Positions 2,066 through 24,980 of a stretch of 64,000 nt of DNA are shown in pieces; position 1 is the stretch's first letter; every line of letters begins with the position of its first letter. The translations under genes were made by a program, and so were the position numbers. The notes under the pieces are model-generated. The model was not told where the DNA came from, searched no databases, and saw nothing but the letters and a program-made list of their open reading frames with translations. Location of the stretch: NCBI GenBank assembly GCA_022482815.1, contig JAKVOM010000001.1:2686946-2750945 (forward strand), given 5' to 3'. The DNA is from Acidaminococcus sp. (GTDB taxonomy: Bacteria > Bacillota > Negativicutes > Acidaminococcales > Acidaminococcaceae).

Positions 2066-3415
2066 ATGTCCTTTACTAATTACACTATTCAAAATAATGC
2101 AGAATGTCAAGATGTCTTTTACAATGTCTTCATGCCGGAAGACCCTTTTGATGACAGCCAGGAGATTGTTATTTGCAGTGAAAAGAAATATACCGACTTC
2201 CGTTGTCCTAAATGTGGTCAGAAAATGTATTCTTACGAGCCATTTTCTACCTACTTGAAAAGTTTTCCTGCGTATCCTGAGCATACCAGGATGATCCGCT
2301 TTGAAGGGCATCGCTTCCGTTGCTCCTGCTGCCATGCAACCATCACTGAGCCTATTCCCTTTAAATATCCCGGGACTCGCATTACCATGAGGGCTTCCCT
2401 TTGGATTGAGACGCTGCTTCGTAATGGAATCCCTGCCAATGCAATTGCCAAGATGTCAGGAATTCACTGGAGCACGATTCGCTATGTCCACAAACAGCTC
2501 ATGGATGAATCTCTCGATAAATATGAAATGGAATTGGAGCTGACCTCTTACAAGCCCCGTTTTCTGGCCATCGATGAGTTTGCTATCCATAAGGGACACA
2601 CTTATGCCACTTGCGTCATGGATTTAGCGACAGGTTATATTCTCTGGGTCGGCAGAGGTCGGGCGATAGCTGACTTCGAGCATTTCTTCAAGGAATATGA
2701 TCAGACAAAGCTGACAGAGGTCAAGGCAGTCGCCATGGATATGAACGCTTCCTACAACAAGCTGGTACAAGAACATCTGCCGCAAGCTAAGGTCGTGTAT
2801 GATCGTTACCACATGCAGGCTCAATTCGGGAAGGAAGTATTAGGTGTAGTAAGACTTGATGAGGCCAGAATGCATAGGGATAAAGCCAGAAACATGCAAG
2901 AAGCATTAAAAGACGCAAGCAATGAAGACAAGCCGGCTTTGAAAGAGCAGATATTCAATGAAAAGAAGAGCTACCACAAATTGAAGAAAGTCCGCTGGCC
3001 GTTACTCACCAATGAAGATAGGCTGAATCCTAAGAACAAAGAAGCGTTGCAGGCCATCTTTGCAGAGCACGAGGATCTGGCAATATGTTATTCCATGAAG
3101 GAAGAGATGGTAGCCCTCTATGAATTAAGGGACTATGACAAGGCTCTTGCAGGATGGAAGCGCTGGTTTAAAGCTGCACTAGGCAGCGGGATTCCGGCCC
3201 TGGTTAGGTTTGCTAAGATTAAGCTGCCAAGGATAGACGGTCTGGTGAACCATGCCCTGTACCCGATAAACACAGGGAAGCTTGAGGGTTTCAACAACAA
3301 GATTAAAGTGGCCAAAAGAAGAGCGTACGGATACAGAGATGATGAGTACTTTTTCACGTTAATTCGCTACCTCTCAATTCCGACCGTAAGAGGTATACTC
3401 CCGAAAAAAACGTGA
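2066..3415 (+). CDS. ISL3-family transposase
   Basis: The protein has 449 residues and is full length for ISL3 (IS204/IS1001/IS1096/IS1165) transposases. The N-terminal zinc-binding part has CPKCG (about residue 50) and CSCC (about residue 90), followed by a helix-turn-helix region (AIAKMSGIHWSTIRYVHKQL). The DDE catalytic core shows D in LAIDEFAIHKGH, D in AVAMDMNASY and E in GKLEGFNNKIK near the C-terminus. It starts at ATG with a GGGAGGAG ribosome binding site that is held in a hairpin. No frameshift is seen, so the enzyme is probably active. It catalyses cut-and-paste transposition of its own element through the terminal repeats. It differs clearly from the second ISL3 transposase at 14072-15289. 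Confidence 0.95.
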   Translation: MSFTNYTIQNNAECQDVFYNVFMPEDPFDDSQEIVICSEKKYTDFRCPKCGQKMYSYEPFSTYLKSFPAYPEHTRMIRFEGHRFRCSCCHATITEPIPFKYPGTRITMRASLWIETLLRNGIPANAIAKMSGIHWSTIRYVHKQLMDESLDKYEMELELTSYKPRFLAIDEFAIHKGHTYATCVMDLATGYILWVGRGRAIADFEHFFKEYDQTKLTEVKAVAMDMNASYNKLVQEHLPQAKVVYDRYHMQAQFGKEVLGVVRLDEARMHRDKARNMQEALKDASNEDKPALKEQIFNEKKSYHKLKKVRWPLLTNEDRLNPKNKEALQAIFAEHEDLAICYSMKEEMVALYELRDYDKALAGWKRWFKAALGSGIPALVRFAKIKLPRIDGLVNHALYPINTGKLEGFNNKIKVAKRRAYGYRDDEYFFTLIRYLSIPTVRGILPKKT

Positions 3416-3433: not shown

Positions 3434-3553
3434 TATGTTTCAGACGTGGTCAGATGCAAGGAAGGCGGGTGTGGGGCCTGTAAGATGTACACAAATAGTA
3501 CCTCGACAGGTCACGCACCCGCCTGACACAGCAGATGGCCGCGAATGAGGCAT
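3434..3553 (-). repeat. Structured element A, copy 3 (shorter, diverged)
   Basis: Long imperfect hairpin. Its inner stem GGCGGGTG/CACCCGCC corresponds to CCGAATTA/TAATTCGG in copy A1 (15844-15990), with entirely different but still complementary bases. The central loop keeps GTAC-ACAAATA-GTAC and GACAGGTCA. The outer arms are shorter than in the other copies. It lies downstream of the adhesin at 3752-8602 on that gene's strand, after the terminator, and the ISL3 element is inserted right next to it. Confidence 0.55.
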
Positions 3554-3559
3554 AGGCTA

Positions 3560-3660
3560 AAAAAAGCTTCTTTAATGTGAACTGGAGGCTTGAGACGACG
3601 AGACTTGTCGAGGAGCGAAAGTCCCCAGGCGACGCCGATGCTCCAACGTGATATGGGCTC
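3560..3660 (-). repeat. Partial structured element B, copy 3
   Basis: Next to A3 there is AAAAAAAGCTTCT followed by GAGACTTGTCGA (about 3604-3615), the same start and loop core as element B copies at 21529-21591 and 24918-24980. The stem is poorly preserved. It keeps the gene-B-A order seen at the other two composite copies. Confidence 0.35.
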
Positions 3661-15843: not shown

Positions 15844-15990
15844 TTTCACAGAAGATTTGCTGCAAGACAGCCACAGATGCGCGAAAGACCGAATTAGGGC
15901 CGCGAAGTCGTACAAACTACGTACGTCGAGAGGTCATAATTCGGTCTGACAAAGCAGATGTGGCTGGATTCTGCAAATCGCTCTGTGAAA
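15844..15990 (-). ncRNA. Structured element A, copy 1 (147 nt, undescribed)
   Basis: Nearly the whole 147 nt folds as one long interrupted hairpin. The outer arms are TTTCACAGA/TCTGTGAAA, then GATTTGC/GCAAATC, CAGCCACA/TGTGGCTG and GACCGAATTA/TAATTCGGTC. The apical part has CGTAC-AAACTA-CGTACG and GAGAGGTCA. Copy A2 has exactly the same length, with compensated changes in the stems. The element follows the HutP-like gene and its terminator (B1). Whether it acts as RNA, as a DNA repeat or as a mobile hairpin is not known; ncRNA is a provisional type. Confidence 0.5.
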
Positions 15991-15996
15991 TTCCTT

Positions 15997-16060
15997 AAAA
16001 AAGCTCTCAGATAAGATGCGTGCGAGGCAAGCCGAGCACCAGATTATCTGAGGTGCCTTT
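15997..16060 (-). terminator. Element B, copy 1: terminator hairpin of the HutP-like gene
   Basis: On the minus strand the outer AAAG/CTTT and inner TCAGATAA/TTATCTGA stems close over a loop reading CTGGTGCTCGGCTTGCCTCG then CACGCAT, followed by GAGAGCUUUUUU. The loop is conserved in copies at 21529-21591 and 24918-24980, although the stem sequence differs. The hairpin starts 8 bases after the stop codon. Confidence 0.75.
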
Positions 16061-16067
16061 AATAAGC

Positions 16068-16499
16068 TCAGTCTTCCGCTGCCAACGTCCTGTGCCCCAT
16101 ACCCACAGCTAACTCATTTAAGTTTAATACGCCGACGCTCATAAACACAGCTACACATACATGCTCCCCATAGCGGGCAATGCCAATCTTGCCGCCCACA
16201 TTGAATCCGGAAGCCTTCGTCATGACCTGGGCCAGCGCTTCATGCGCGGCGCCTGCCACCGTACCGGCCCCGACGTGGGAATCCGTTACGATGTGCTGCC
16301 GTTCTGCCGCCACCATAGCTCTTTCTACAATTTTCGTCACGGACGGAAGAAATTCTCCGCCAAAGTTCACGGCTGCTGTACGGAATCCTTCGGCAGCAAA
16401 AGCATCCTTCAGGCGGTCTTCTTCCTCCCGCGTTGCGGATAGTGCCATACGGAGTGCCGCCCGTCCTACATCTATACTCTCATACACCTTATTTGCCAT
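16068..16499 (-). CDS. HutP-family protein
   Basis: The 143 residues are close in size to Bacillus HutP (about 150). The C-terminal half matches the HutP pattern: GTVAGAAHEALAQVMTKASG, then NVGGKIGIARYGEHVCVAVF, then LNELAVGMGHR. The N-terminal part (VGRAALRMALSATREEEDRL) is a helix as in HutP. HutP is an L-histidine- and metal-dependent RNA-binding antiterminator of histidine-utilisation operons. No hut gene is nearby, so the target here is unknown; a role as a histidine sensor is inference. It lies next to a tRNA operon whose first gene is tRNA-His, separated by the A1/B1 elements. The start ATG has a weak GAG-type site. Its terminator is element B1. Confidence 0.75.
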   Translation of the reverse strand: MANKVYESIDVGRAALRMALSATREEEDRLKDAFAAEGFRTAAVNFGGEFLPSVTKIVERAMVAAERQHIVTDSHVGAGTVAGAAHEALAQVMTKASGFNVGGKIGIARYGEHVCVAVFMSVGVLNLNELAVGMGHRTLAAED

Positions 16500-18325: not shown

Positions 18326-21300
18326 TTGAACACGCGCACGCTGCCCAGCGGTATTTATGAAAAAATTATTTCCGAGGAATTTGGCAAAATCCTGGACGAA
18401 GCGATCCAAAGCGGCGAAATCTCGGCCCGCATGCAGACCCTGGATCCGCAGGATGCCGTCAATTATCTTGCTTCCTATGTCAAAGAGATTGTACAGCGCT
18501 GTCTGAAGACGATTGCTGACAGTGAAAAAGAGGATAACAACGGGGAGCTCCTCACGAGCGAACTAACACTTACGAATGAAGTCATCCGCCTCTTAGCAAA
18601 TAAGATCAAGGAGCTTGGCAAGGGCCATGAAATCAAGCAGGCCGATTTTTTGCTGACCCAGCTCACGCAAAAAATGAACCGTTTAAAAGATACACCACTT
18701 CCTCGCCCCGAGACGTCCCTCTCCCGCTCCTTTCTCTTTACCAACAGCCAGAAAGATATTTCTCTTGTTTCCGAACTGCGGCGCGAAATCGCCTCTTCCG
18801 ACCGCATTGATTTTCTGGTTTCCTTCATTAAATTCTCCGGTTTCTCCATGATTCGCCCGGAGCTCATTCGTTTTACCAATAATGGCGGAAAGATGCGCAT
18901 CCTCACGACGACTTACATGGGTGCGACAGATCCAAAGGCCATCGAAGAATTGGCTAACCTGCCCAATACCGAAGTCAAGATTTCCTATAACGTCAAGGAA
19001 ACGCGGCTCCATGCCAAGTCGTACATCTTCCACCGCGAAAGTCATTTTTCGACGGCCTACATCGGGTCTTCCAATCTCTCCCACGCGGCCATTGCCGATG
19101 GCCTTGAATGGAACATGAAGATTACCGAGCGGGATATGCCGGACATCATGAAAAAGATGGACGCCACTTTTGAATCGTACTGGAATTCTGCCGAGTTTAA
19201 GTTATTTGATGCGAACAAGGATGCCGATGAACTGCAGCAGGCCATAGATGCAGAGCGCCACCCCGGTGAAAGGAAAAGTGCGGCTTCCTACACCTTTGAA
19301 ATCCGTCCCTACCCTTACCAGCAAATCATCCTCGACGCACTGCAGGTCGAACGGAAGGAGCGCCATCATTACCATAATCTGATTGTTGCCGCTACGGGTA
19401 CCGGCAAAACTGCCATTGCCGCCTTTGATTACCGCCGTTTCACCCGCAGCCGTAAAAAGGGTGCACGCCTGCTCTTTGTCGCCCACCGCGAGGAAATTCT
19501 GGAACAGGCGCTCTCCTGCTTCCGCCAGGTTATGAGGGATCCGAATTTTGGCAAGCTGTATGTCGGCCGTAATAAGACGGACGAATTGTCCCACCTCTTC
19601 ATGTCTATCCAATCCCTGGAAAGTACCCGGCTATGGGAACACATGACGCCGGATTACTATGACATGATTATCGTCGATGAATTCCATCACGCCGCTGCAA
19701 AGTCCTACCAGAATCTGCTTAGTTATTTCAAACCGAAGATTCTCCTGGGGCTCACGGCTACACCGGAACGCATGGACGGCAAGAATATATTGTCCTATTT
19801 TGACGGGCACATTGCCGCCGAGATTCGCCTGTCCGACGCCATTGAGCGCCGCCTGCTCTGCCCGTTCCATTATTTTGGAGTCGCCGATACAGTAGACCTG
19901 ACCCACATCAAATGGACGAATGGTCAGTATGACCTGAGTGAGCTGAACCACCTCTTTGCGCTCGATAGTGCGCCGGCCATGAAACGAGCTAGGGCCATCA
20001 GAGCGGCTGTGGATCGATATACGGCAGACAATCGAGACATCAAGGGACTCGGTTTCTGCGTTTCCATTGACCATGCCCATTTTATGGCGAGGTATTTCAA
20101 CGATCACGATCTTCCTTCCGCTGCCTTAACGGGCAAAGATTCGGATGAAACGAGAAAACAAGCCAGAACTGACCTGGAAACGGGAAAAATCAAGTTTCTC
20201 TTCGTCGTCGACCTCTTTAATGAAGGCATCGATATCCCTTCCATTAATACAGTTCTCTTCCTGCGTCCGACGAACAGTCTGACCATCTTCCTGCAGCAGC
20301 TGGGGCGCGGACTTCGTCTGGCACCGCACAAGGACTGCCTGACCGTTCTGGATTTTGTAGCCCAGGCGAATCGGAAATATAACTTTGCCGCTCGTTTTGA
20401 AGCGCTGCTCGGCGGCCGTCAAAATGGCAAGATCAAAAAGGAAATCGAACATGGTTTTCCCCACGTGCCCAAAGGGTGCTCCATCCAGCTCGAAGAAATT
20501 GCACAGAAACGGGTACTGGATAACATCAAGGCCCGTCTGCGCCGGAATGACTACTACAAGGAACTGATTCAGGAGCTTTATGAAGCAGCAGGACGCGTTC
20601 CCACGATTATGGAATTTATGAAAGCAGCCGGAATCGATCTGAACGTGTTCTATGACAAGACACGTTCCTTCACCCGCCTCTGCATGGAAGCCGGCGTGCT
20701 GCCATCCGTGCCGCCTGATGATACAGAAGAAAAGCTCACAAAGGCATTTCCGCGGATTCTTTCCATTGACTCACCGAAATGGCTGACCTTCCTGATGAAG
20801 AGCTTTGATACGCCGCCTTCTTCCCTTTCAGACGTCGAAAAACAGTATGCCCGGATGTGGCAGTTTACGCTTTTGGGGAGTGACGGAGAAGGTTTTGGGG
20901 AAACGCTGGCCCGCTTCCCGAGTGACAGTCCTTTTACGAAAGAACTCAAAGAAGTGCTTTCCATTCAGTATGATAGCTTCTCTGTACTCCCGGAAATGGC
21001 AAATCTGCCTTATCCCTGCGCCCTGGAAGTCTACTGCCATTATTCCCGCGACCAGATTTTTGCGGCACTGGGGGTCGATAAGCCAAGCAGCGTGCGGGAA
21101 GGCGTCAAGTACCTGGACCCTGGAAAAAGTAATACCGTTACAAAGCCAACAGATGTATTCCTCGTCACGCTGAATAAATCGGAAAAAGAATTTTCCGATA
21201 CAACGCTTTACGAAGATTACTCCATGAGTGAAACGCTCTTTCACTGGCAGTCACAAAACCTCACGACACCAGCTTCCACGACAGGACAGCGCTATATCCA

Positions 21301-21505
21301 CCAGCGGGAAAACGGCAATATCGTCCTGTTCTTTGTCCGCGAACGTAAGAAGGGTTTACACGATGTGGCTATGAGTTTCACCTTTTTGGGAAAAGCGCAG
21401 ATCGTCAGCTGGTCCGGTTCCCAACCTATGACAATCATATACAAACTCGAACACCCGATTCCTGCAAAATACATCCGTACTACTGATAGTGCTGGGGTAA
21501 TGTAA
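18326..21505 (+). CDS. PLD-nuclease/SF2 helicase fusion with DUF3427-type C-terminus
   Basis: The 1059 residues start at TTG with AAGGAGGG at proper spacing. Residues 1-110 are helical. About 135-290 is a phospholipase-D-like nuclease domain with HAKSYIFHR (H229, K231) and GSSNLSHAA. About 320-750 is an SF2 helicase with Walker A AATGTGKTAIAAF (355-362), motif II IIVDEFHHAA, motif III GLTATPERMDG, and motifs V/VI FNEGIDIPSINTVLFLRPTN and QQLGRGLRL. The last ~250 residues fit the DUF3427 region that accompanies such helicases. The family is usually annotated as a restriction-type helicase and occurs in defence contexts. Here it is solitary, with no methylase, so anti-phage activity is a hypothesis. 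Elements B2 and A2 follow. Confidence 0.9.
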   Translation: MNTRTLPSGIYEKIISEEFGKILDEAIQSGEISARMQTLDPQDAVNYLASYVKEIVQRCLKTIADSEKEDNNGELLTSELTLTNEVIRLLANKIKELGKGHEIKQADFLLTQLTQKMNRLKDTPLPRPETSLSRSFLFTNSQKDISLVSELRREIASSDRIDFLVSFIKFSGFSMIRPELIRFTNNGGKMRILTTTYMGATDPKAIEELANLPNTEVKISYNVKETRLHAKSYIFHRESHFSTAYIGSSNLSHAAIADGLEWNMKITERDMPDIMKKMDATFESYWNSAEFKLFDANKDADELQQAIDAERHPGERKSAASYTFEIRPYPYQQIILDALQVERKERHHYHNLIVAATGTGKTAIAAFDYRRFTRSRKKGARLLFVAHREEILEQALSCFRQVMRDPNFGKLYVGRNKTDELSHLFMSIQSLESTRLWEHMTPDYYDMIIVDEFHHAAAKSYQNLLSYFKPKILLGLTATPERMDGKNILSYFDGHIAAEIRLSDAIERRLLCPFHYFGVADTVDLTHIKWTNGQYDLSELNHLFALDSAPAMKRARAIRAAVDRYTADNRDIKGLGFCVSIDHAHFMARYFNDHDLPSAALTGKDSDETRKQARTDLETGKIKFLFVVDLFNEGIDIPSINTVLFLRPTNSLTIFLQQLGRGLRLAPHKDCLTVLDFVAQANRKYNFAARFEALLGGRQNGKIKKEIEHGFPHVPKGCSIQLEEIAQKRVLDNIKARLRRNDYYKELIQELYEAAGRVPTIMEFMKAAGIDLNVFYDKTRSFTRLCMEAGVLPSVPPDDTEEKLTKAFPRILSIDSPKWLTFLMKSFDTPPSSLSDVEKQYARMWQFTLLGSDGEGFGETLARFPSDSPFTKELKEVLSIQYDSFSVLPEMANLPYPCALEVYCHYSRDQIFAALGVDKPSSVREGVKYLDPGKSNTVTKPTDVFLVTLNKSEKEFSDTTLYEDYSMSETLFHWQSQNLTTPASTTGQRYIHQRENGNIVLFFVRERKKGLHDVAMSFTFLGKAQIVSWSGSQPMTIIYKLEHPIPAKYIRTTDSAGVM

Positions 21506-21528: not shown

Positions 21529-21591
21529 AAAGGCACCTGCCTCCCTCTGGCGTTCGACAAGTCTCACGCGCATCAGGAGGCAGAGCTTTTT
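21529..21591 (+). terminator. Element B, copy 2: terminator hairpin of the helicase gene
   Basis: AAAGGCACCTGCCTCC pairs imperfectly with GGAGGCAGAGCTTTTT around the conserved loop CTGGCGTTCGACAAGTCTCA then CGCGCAT. It is followed at once by element A2, the same B-then-A order as after the HutP-like gene. Confidence 0.78.
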
Positions 21592-21599
21592 ATAGGGAA

Positions 21600-21746
21600 T
21601 TTCACAGAGCGATTTGCAGAATCCAACCGCATGGACTTTGTCGAACCGAGTTGTGACCACTCAACGTACCTCTTTTGTACGCCCTCGTAGCCCCAACTCG
21701 GTTCTTCGCGTCCCTGCGGCTGTCTTGCAGCAAATCTTCTGTGAAA
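21600..21746 (+). ncRNA. Structured element A, copy 2 (147 nt, undescribed)
   Basis: Inverse of A1 and identical in length. The outer arms TTTCACAGA/TCTGTGAAA and GATTTGC/GCAAATC are conserved. The inner stem is CCGAGTTG/CAACTCGG where A1 has CCGAATTA/TAATTCGG, and ACCGCA/TGCGGC where A1 has GCCACA/TGTGGC, i.e. compensated changes. The apical region keeps the CGTAC/GTACG pair and the TGACC/GGTCA-side sequence. Type provisional. Confidence 0.5.
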
Positions 21747-24917: not shown

Positions 24918-24980
24918 AAAGGCACCTGCCTCACGCTGGCGTTCGACAAGTCTCGCGCGCATCGTGAGGCAGGTGCCTTT
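24918..24980 (+). terminator. Element B, solo copy 4: terminator between convergent genes
   Basis: The perfect stem AAAGGCACCTGCCTCACG/CGTGAGGCAGGTGCCTTT closes over a 27-base loop CTGGCGTTCGACAAGTCTCG then CGCGCAT that is almost identical to copy 2. It lies between the ACT gene (+) and the HD-domain gene (-), and can work in both directions. No element A follows. Confidence 0.85.

Follow-up and report, generated by a model that had tools for sequence, protein, structure and literature searches.

A dispersed hairpin repeat family with fixed loops and paired stem changes in Acidaminococcus and in genomes of several other phyla

Behind the HutP gene of this Acidaminococcus sp. lie two adjoining hairpins, termed B and A, and the question raised by the locus is what kind of element they form. 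The window analyzed here, meaning the whole stretch of 64,000 nucleotides, contains hairpin A more than once. Hairpin A1 (15844..15990) folds better on the plus strand and hairpin A2 (21600..21746) on the minus strand; we refer to the better-folding strand as S. Both are 147 nt long, as the initial annotation had claimed, and both are real hairpins, with folding energies on the better strand of −73.4 kcal/mol for A1 (mean of 200 shuffles −36.7 kcal/mol, z −10.0) and −80.4 kcal/mol for A2 (mean of 200 shuffles −40.6 kcal/mol, z −11.5). A covariance model of the core finds three sites in the window, one each in A1 (15870-15965, 96.6 bits), A2 (21625-21720, 85 bits) and a diverged copy, A3, whose core lies at 3447..3542 with S on the plus strand (80.4 bits) and whose outer arms are gone; the opposite strand of A1 is a weak match to the same model (E 0.043). 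The compensated inner stems described earlier are present, namely CCGAATTA/TAATTCGG, CCGAGTTG/CAACTCGG and, in A3, GGCGGGTG/CACCCGCC. Two further features that had been called conserved hold in part: the TTTCACAGA outer arms occur in A1 and A2 and not in A3, and represent just one of several arm classes among the 27 intact copies in the genome, and A1 and A3 have the tip AGGTCA where A2 has TGGTCA.

The initial annotation had also placed a gene, then B, then A at three sites, and this order is found at two of them. The HutP gene (16068..16499, minus strand; PF09021, E 1.1e-45) carries B1 and A1 at its 3′ end, with hairpin B1 (15997..16060, minus strand, z −3.7) beginning 7 nt past the stop codon and terminator-like in the direction of the gene. 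Hairpin B2 (21529..21591, plus strand, z −2.9) is likewise terminator-like in the direction of its neighbor, a ResIII/DUF3427 helicase gene with a PLD domain (18326..21505, plus strand), and adjoins A2; both gene identities agree with those first proposed. At the third site, B3 is a mere remnant (3600..3614) recognized by eye from the loop signature GAGACTTGTCGAGGA, with no stable hairpin (z +0.49). The adhesin frame to which this site had been assigned is without a Pfam match and its stop codon lies about 210 nt from the end of the A3 core, whereas an ISL3 transposase gene identified by Pfam (2066-3415) is nearer, the core beginning about 30 nt behind it. Genes with identical C-terminal residues adjoin three hairpin A copies, this ISL3-type gene and those at loci L025 and L020.

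Across the source genome, B adjoins 26 of the 27 intact A copies (25 recognized via a pattern, one by eye), and at the remaining copy, 445275, a different hairpin occupies the usual position of B. One B hairpin in the window, at 24918..24980 on the plus strand, stands without A with both of its arms complete, and by eye A occurs without B in A. fermentans and A. massiliensis. B is thus a second, independently occurring repeat that usually accompanies A in the source genome. It has the form of an intrinsic terminator, a G+C-containing stem followed by a T run, and judging from this shape it probably terminates transcription of the preceding gene.

In the aligned copies of hairpin A, the unpaired letters are fixed and the sequence of the stems is free. 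The plan on S reads 5′-stem-CAGATrC-GCGAA-[inner stem, GTAC-loop-GTAC tip]-GACAAA-GyAGATG-stem-3′, with a core consensus of CAGATrCGCGAAAG...TGACAAAGyAGATG, and the core model covers 97 positions of the 147-nt full hairpin. The outer stem has an internal loop of the AAGA/GATT type on S; next to this stem CAGAT faces CAGAT, and tandem G-A pairs can be made out there by eye. The loop GCGAA faces GACAAA, and beyond it rises an inner stem of free sequence that in the source genome ends in GAAG facing TCGA and then the GTAC-loop-GTAC tip; other Negativicutes have variants such as TAGG facing ACAAC. The inner stem seems dispensable, because a few copies in A. massiliensis and A. fermentans are without the whole of it and retain GCGAA or GCAAA, three letters and GACAAA.

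The stems covary strongly. In a core alignment of 35 sequences from several phyla, 94.9% of 944 pair cells form and 22 of 27 pairs show two-sided changes, a count that is favored by the prior removal of four weak pairs from the 31 of the fold of L001 (paired in only 22 to 26 of the 35 sequences). The core covariation score is 0.628, against 0.182 (sd 0.013) for shuffled alignments and at most 0.120 when the partners are slid. Among the 27 full-length copies of the source genome, for which all pairs were kept, two-sided changes are seen at 35 of 51 pairs, with a score of 0.403 against 0.165. Because of the common ancestry of the copies, and because a single member supplied the structure, these figures are not probabilities, yet the effect is large. 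The 27 copies come from 33 rows, the chimeras 74369, 75321, 75585, 1884587 and 2823227 and the window's A3 having been set aside, and further partial BLASTN matches stand outside the alignment. R1, the covariance model of the core, was built from 35 of 55 candidate sequences, 16 of them taken from the 27 own copies and 19 from the 28 external ones. Candidates L054:7671, L059, L061, L062, L071, L075, L080 and both L055 candidates were left out, and the E-values of the model are rough. The paired changes support selection on the structure, as had been suggested from the window, and do so in both alignments. Repair within palindromes could pair changes without selection; such repair would also tend to erase the fixed mismatched loops, which have persisted.

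Hairpin A is a copy of an interspersed repeat family that reaches across phyla, with loops fixed on S and stems that vary in pairs. BLASTN with A1 gives 47 full and partial matches in the 3.06-Mb source genome, one of them A1 against its own other strand, and R1 finds 53 copies there at E ≤ 0.001. Outside it, BLASTN with A1 found matches in only two of 60 relatives, and a search by sequence alone is weak for this family. The source genome is congeneric with A. fermentans (WCA-389-WT-5B) and A. massiliensis. R1 matches occur in 22 of 59 genomes of the Acidaminococcaceae, the source included, where they track genera (7/7 genomes of genus g17, 0/14 of g13). A covariance search of the Negativicutes, as proposed in the initial annotation, was positive in at least 37 of 150 genomes and 19 of 63 genera with the source genome counted, and at the level of the phylum at least 6 of 299 genomes matched at E ≤ 1e-4, or at least 5 of 298 without the source; the class and phylum counts are lower bounds, coming from stricter filters with few candidates scored per genome. 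The observation is more general than the copies in the window suggest.

Ten of 12 genomes reached via external matches are R1-positive. Three 'Deltaproteobacteria' metagenome-assembled genomes (MAGs) and one Acidobacteria MAG are high-copy carriers with 26 to 38 copies each (38, 33, 31 and 26 in G083 to G086), G092 holds one copy, and further carriers are Brocadiaceae and Patescibacteria MAGs; on inspection by eye, 14 of 40 external stretches were considered chance matches in coding sequence. As several carriers are MAGs, single assignments may be binning errors. The match in an 'Acholeplasmataceae' MAG (G091) has the same coordinates as that in the Acidaminococcaceae member G015 (loci L061 and L063), and its label looks wrong. 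The four high-copy MAGs are harder to explain by binning because their stems differ from those of the Acidaminococcaceae. Carriage by phages or plasmids is unsupported: A1 has no BLASTN match among plasmids and phages, and one exact pattern gave ten viral contig stretches, all judged to be coding chance matches with weak folds, these searches covering A1 itself and that single pattern.

The family also has a preferred strand. All 27 own copies are more stable on S, which is antisense to the gene ahead of B and A, with RNA parameters (mean −18 kcal/mol) as well as with DNA parameters (mean −7.9). The same holds for 39 of 40 copies from other genomes (the exception being L104) and 19 of 20 further Negativicutes copies (exception L231), most copies outside the source genome having been picked by a model of S. 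The paired columns read on S contain 59 G-U and 16 A-C cells, an excess that is expected if S is the folded strand, while G-U pairs in the best folds number only 71 versus 58. Purine-rich loops, which the energy model favors, give part of the preference and of the energy gap. A bias toward the lagging strand was considered and set aside; with the origin near 0.45-0.73 Mb from the GC skew of the loci, the approximately 33 of 52 copies whose S is opposite to the fork (a hand count of low weight) merely follow the direction of the genes.

In the source genome, the position of the element relative to genes also follows a rule. A frame of at least 100 codons antisense to S terminates at a distance of 40 to 100 nt from A in 24 of the 27 intact copies, and B lies in the interval. 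This extends to the whole genome the order and orientation first seen in the window. On the other side of A, such a frame lies within 100 nt in 2 of 27 copies and within 300 nt in 8 of 27. In A. fermentans and A. massiliensis, inspection by eye shows that the gene is followed by an invariant left end, which reads GGCTnACGCATAACCCAG in gene orientation and can provide the stop codon of the gene. The placement rule is weaker outside the source genome: among 20 Negativicutes copies, a frame within 110 nt lies on the opposite strand in 16 and on the S side in 8 (open frames rather than confirmed genes), and copies in either orientation to genes are present in the delta MAGs.

These observations bear on two readings in which A would act at the RNA level. 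In the first, B and A together form a terminator and mRNA stabilizer on the gene strand, similar to a REP. The gene-sized frames that end within 100 nt on the gene strand at 24 of 27 copies are consistent with such a device, as is the terminator-shaped B beside 26 of the 27. It nevertheless seems quite improbable to us, because in all 27 copies A folds less stably on the gene-sense strand, and because the pairing of A with B is not fixed: A stands without its partner in A. fermentans and A. massiliensis, as a B hairpin does in the window. The related proposal that A is an RNA released after the terminator has become less likely on similar grounds: S is opposite to the preceding gene in all 27 own copies, the same strand of the motif is favored in 58 of 60 copies elsewhere, B lies between the gene and A, and A and B swap partners.

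In the second reading, S itself would be transcribed, from the convergent side or antisense into the 3′ end of the gene, and its loops would bind a protein that controls 3′-end processing or stability. The strong two-sided covariation, the purine-rich conserved loops and the G-U excess on S all fit an RNA of this kind, and so does the recurrence of the element behind the same genes. Copies lie at the 3′ end of guaA in four Acidaminococcus species, one of them common to A. fermentans and A. massiliensis; two delta MAGs have a copy behind a gene whose product ends in GTIEWE, as the guaA product does, and in two Patescibacteria MAGs copies follow genes with products ending like Tuf and SSB (the names guaA, Tuf and SSB are taken from the C-termini rather than from a family search). 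Against this, the guaA copies of the four species represent three different stem sets, B separates the gene from A in the source genome, the samples from the delta MAGs and from other Negativicutes include copies in which S is the sense strand of the gene before them, and by eye the cores of different phyla have no promoter or terminator in common. We regard a functional RNA as unlikely, if less so than the gene-strand device. Nor did A match a known RNA family, in agreement with the first assessment: at the gathering score, Rfam 15 returned only tRNAs in the window and in 14 loci holding relatives, with three sub-threshold hits around A1.

The way in which copies are scattered and combined is better fitted by movement. 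Between the two closest A copies the similarity is 99%, against 50-55% for their flanks, and a second pair reaches 97% between flanks of the same similarity. The B copies of this second pair are only 62% alike, which marks A and B as separate units. One chimera, copy 228328, has left and right arms of different classes, tandem copies in the same orientation occur, and by eye new copies lie inside old ones (L132, behind guaA, and L127, L134 and L135).

Several other features were seen around the copies. Two other palindromic repeat modules interrupt A at its tip or arms in the source genome (L024, L030, L034, L035 and others), one beginning GGGAGCC.ATGA and the other containing GGAACTGAGCGCCAACGATCC...GGCCGAAGGCCGC. 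At about 670-970 of L134 there is a possible remnant, CCAGGCGCTGGGTTATACGTCAGCC, without the hairpin interior, as might be left by deletion or excision from one arm to the other. Frames resembling IS110 transposases were noted by eye near copies 1884587 and 228328 (L049 3-668 and L013), and a further recurrent neighbor seen by eye is the 5′ part of a gene for a group II intron-like reverse transcriptase, close to copies 1839480, 2233062 and 1884587 (L040, L037 and L049). A retron msd hairpin would have a retron reverse transcriptase in its vicinity; the genome has three RVT_1 matches at two places, of which the 420-aa one is of the group II intron type by eye.

We infer that hairpin A is a non-autonomous mobile element recognized in trans as the folded single strand S, and we assign this reading a probability of roughly 0.55. 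A trans-acting factor would read the loops and the shape on single-stranded S, either as ssDNA or as an RNA copy of S, and would tolerate any stem; the element would settle immediately behind genes, and settled copies would then recombine with other copies. A mobile single-strand hairpin accounts for the dispersal, nesting, chimeras, free stems, fixed loops and strand preference, and among the options first put forward a hairpin mobile element fits best, although no target duplication was found. An empty site with such a duplication was sought in two ortholog comparisons lacking the copy, both too rearranged to show ends. The genus-following distribution and the shared guaA copy mean that old, vertically kept elements also fit. 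By itself, a mobile hairpin does not account for the marked bias in the orientation of copies behind genes of the source genome; here our guess would be selection against a very stable hairpin in sense mRNA.

Among known mobile systems, the integron recombination site was weighed as a structural parallel. An attC site keeps structure rather than sequence, is folded on its bottom strand and lies behind a gene, with the boxes RYYYAAC...GTTRRRY around the hairpin. Hairpin A likewise keeps structure, folds on the antisense strand and sits behind a gene, so that it might serve a tyrosine recombinase as an attC-like target folded from the bottom strand. The free stem sequence, the fixed loops and the tandem copies in one orientation would suit such a target, and integron integrases over the cut-off occur in 4 of 19 genomes, the four high-copy MAGs (G083 C45, G084 C50, G085 C119 and G086 C283), against 0 of 14 controls; these four are a lead only. 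No core boxes were seen by eye in the copies, the search for boxes having covered the integron regions, and the inspected copies adjoin ordinary genes rather than cassette arrays. No integrase exceeds the cut-off in any of 12 Acidaminococcaceae, the source genome and 11 family members. In five stretches around integrase hits there was no convincing R1 match (best E 1.8), and the sole attC-like site in the integron regions differs from hairpin A. With no copy in the integron regions inspected, integron arrays are not supported as the setting of the family, and we hold an integron-like site to be highly improbable.

A parent transposase was sought in two ways. No R1 match was found at 14 Y1/RAYT loci with filters off and E up to 1, nor at the Y1 loci of the source genome (L043-L048) at E up to 0.1. 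A Y1 gene at E ≤ 1e-6 is absent from R1-positive genomes including G002, G006 and G024 (99% complete). G000 has six Y1 genes, those inspected being of the IS200/IS605 type by eye, and at least four RAYT-like loci carry terminal repeats of their own. Y1/RAYT is thus not supported as the parent, since no copy lies at the 14 loci and several carriers lack Y1. A transposase between hairpin pairs facing in opposite directions is not supported either, the ten such stretches inspected holding ordinary-looking genes. MITEs are small, dispersed elements with inverted-repeat arms that can be nested. Hairpin A resembles them in all four respects and differs in that its interior, rather than its ends, is conserved; no target duplication was seen in the two ortholog comparisons, and no parent transposase was found.

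By kind, hairpin A is a stem-loop repeat, as REPs are. Published descriptions portray a REP as a single stem-loop of 20-40 bp with a GTAG- or CGTC-tagged foot (PMC3733652), and REP/REPIN, ERIC and bcr1 as imperfect palindromes present in tens of copies, intergenic and often less than 20 bp from the 3′ end of a gene, the CGTC REPs being without a dedicated transposase (PMC3733652, PMC2267715). Hairpin A is similarly an imperfect palindrome that occurs in tens of intergenic copies near the 3′ ends of genes. It is unlike REP/REPIN in its length of 147 nt, its several fixed internal loops, its favored strand and the lack of any RAYT link found, and its loops are constant across phyla with unrelated stems. 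No tagged 20-40 bp unit was seen, nor, by eye, a GTAG or CGTC tag at the foot of the hairpin. Relative to the families described in the consulted passages of PMC3733652, PMC2700814, PMC3543383 and PMC2267715, hairpin A stands out by its cross-phylum loop code, its size and its strand preference. The family is apparently unnamed. Twelve short sequence strings searched in the literature matched only seemingly unrelated papers, and the repeat could already be pictured among multicopy Geobacter sequences in supplementary files; similar repeats may also have been seen in other genomes.

Many of the hairpin repeat families described so far are restricted to a single species or to a few. The loop code of hairpin A recurs, on stems that are unrelated, in Negativicutes as well as in MAGs of 'Deltaproteobacteria', Acidobacteria, Brocadiaceae and Patescibacteria, which implies a shared recognition factor or function. 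We tentatively suggest that the family may be a previously undescribed mobile hairpin present across several phyla, whose purine-rich loops would be read by a trans factor and which would insert behind genes and inside older copies without a known transposase. The covariance model offers a direct route to the recognition factor, through comparison of genomes with and without the family and through use of the S hairpin as bait.
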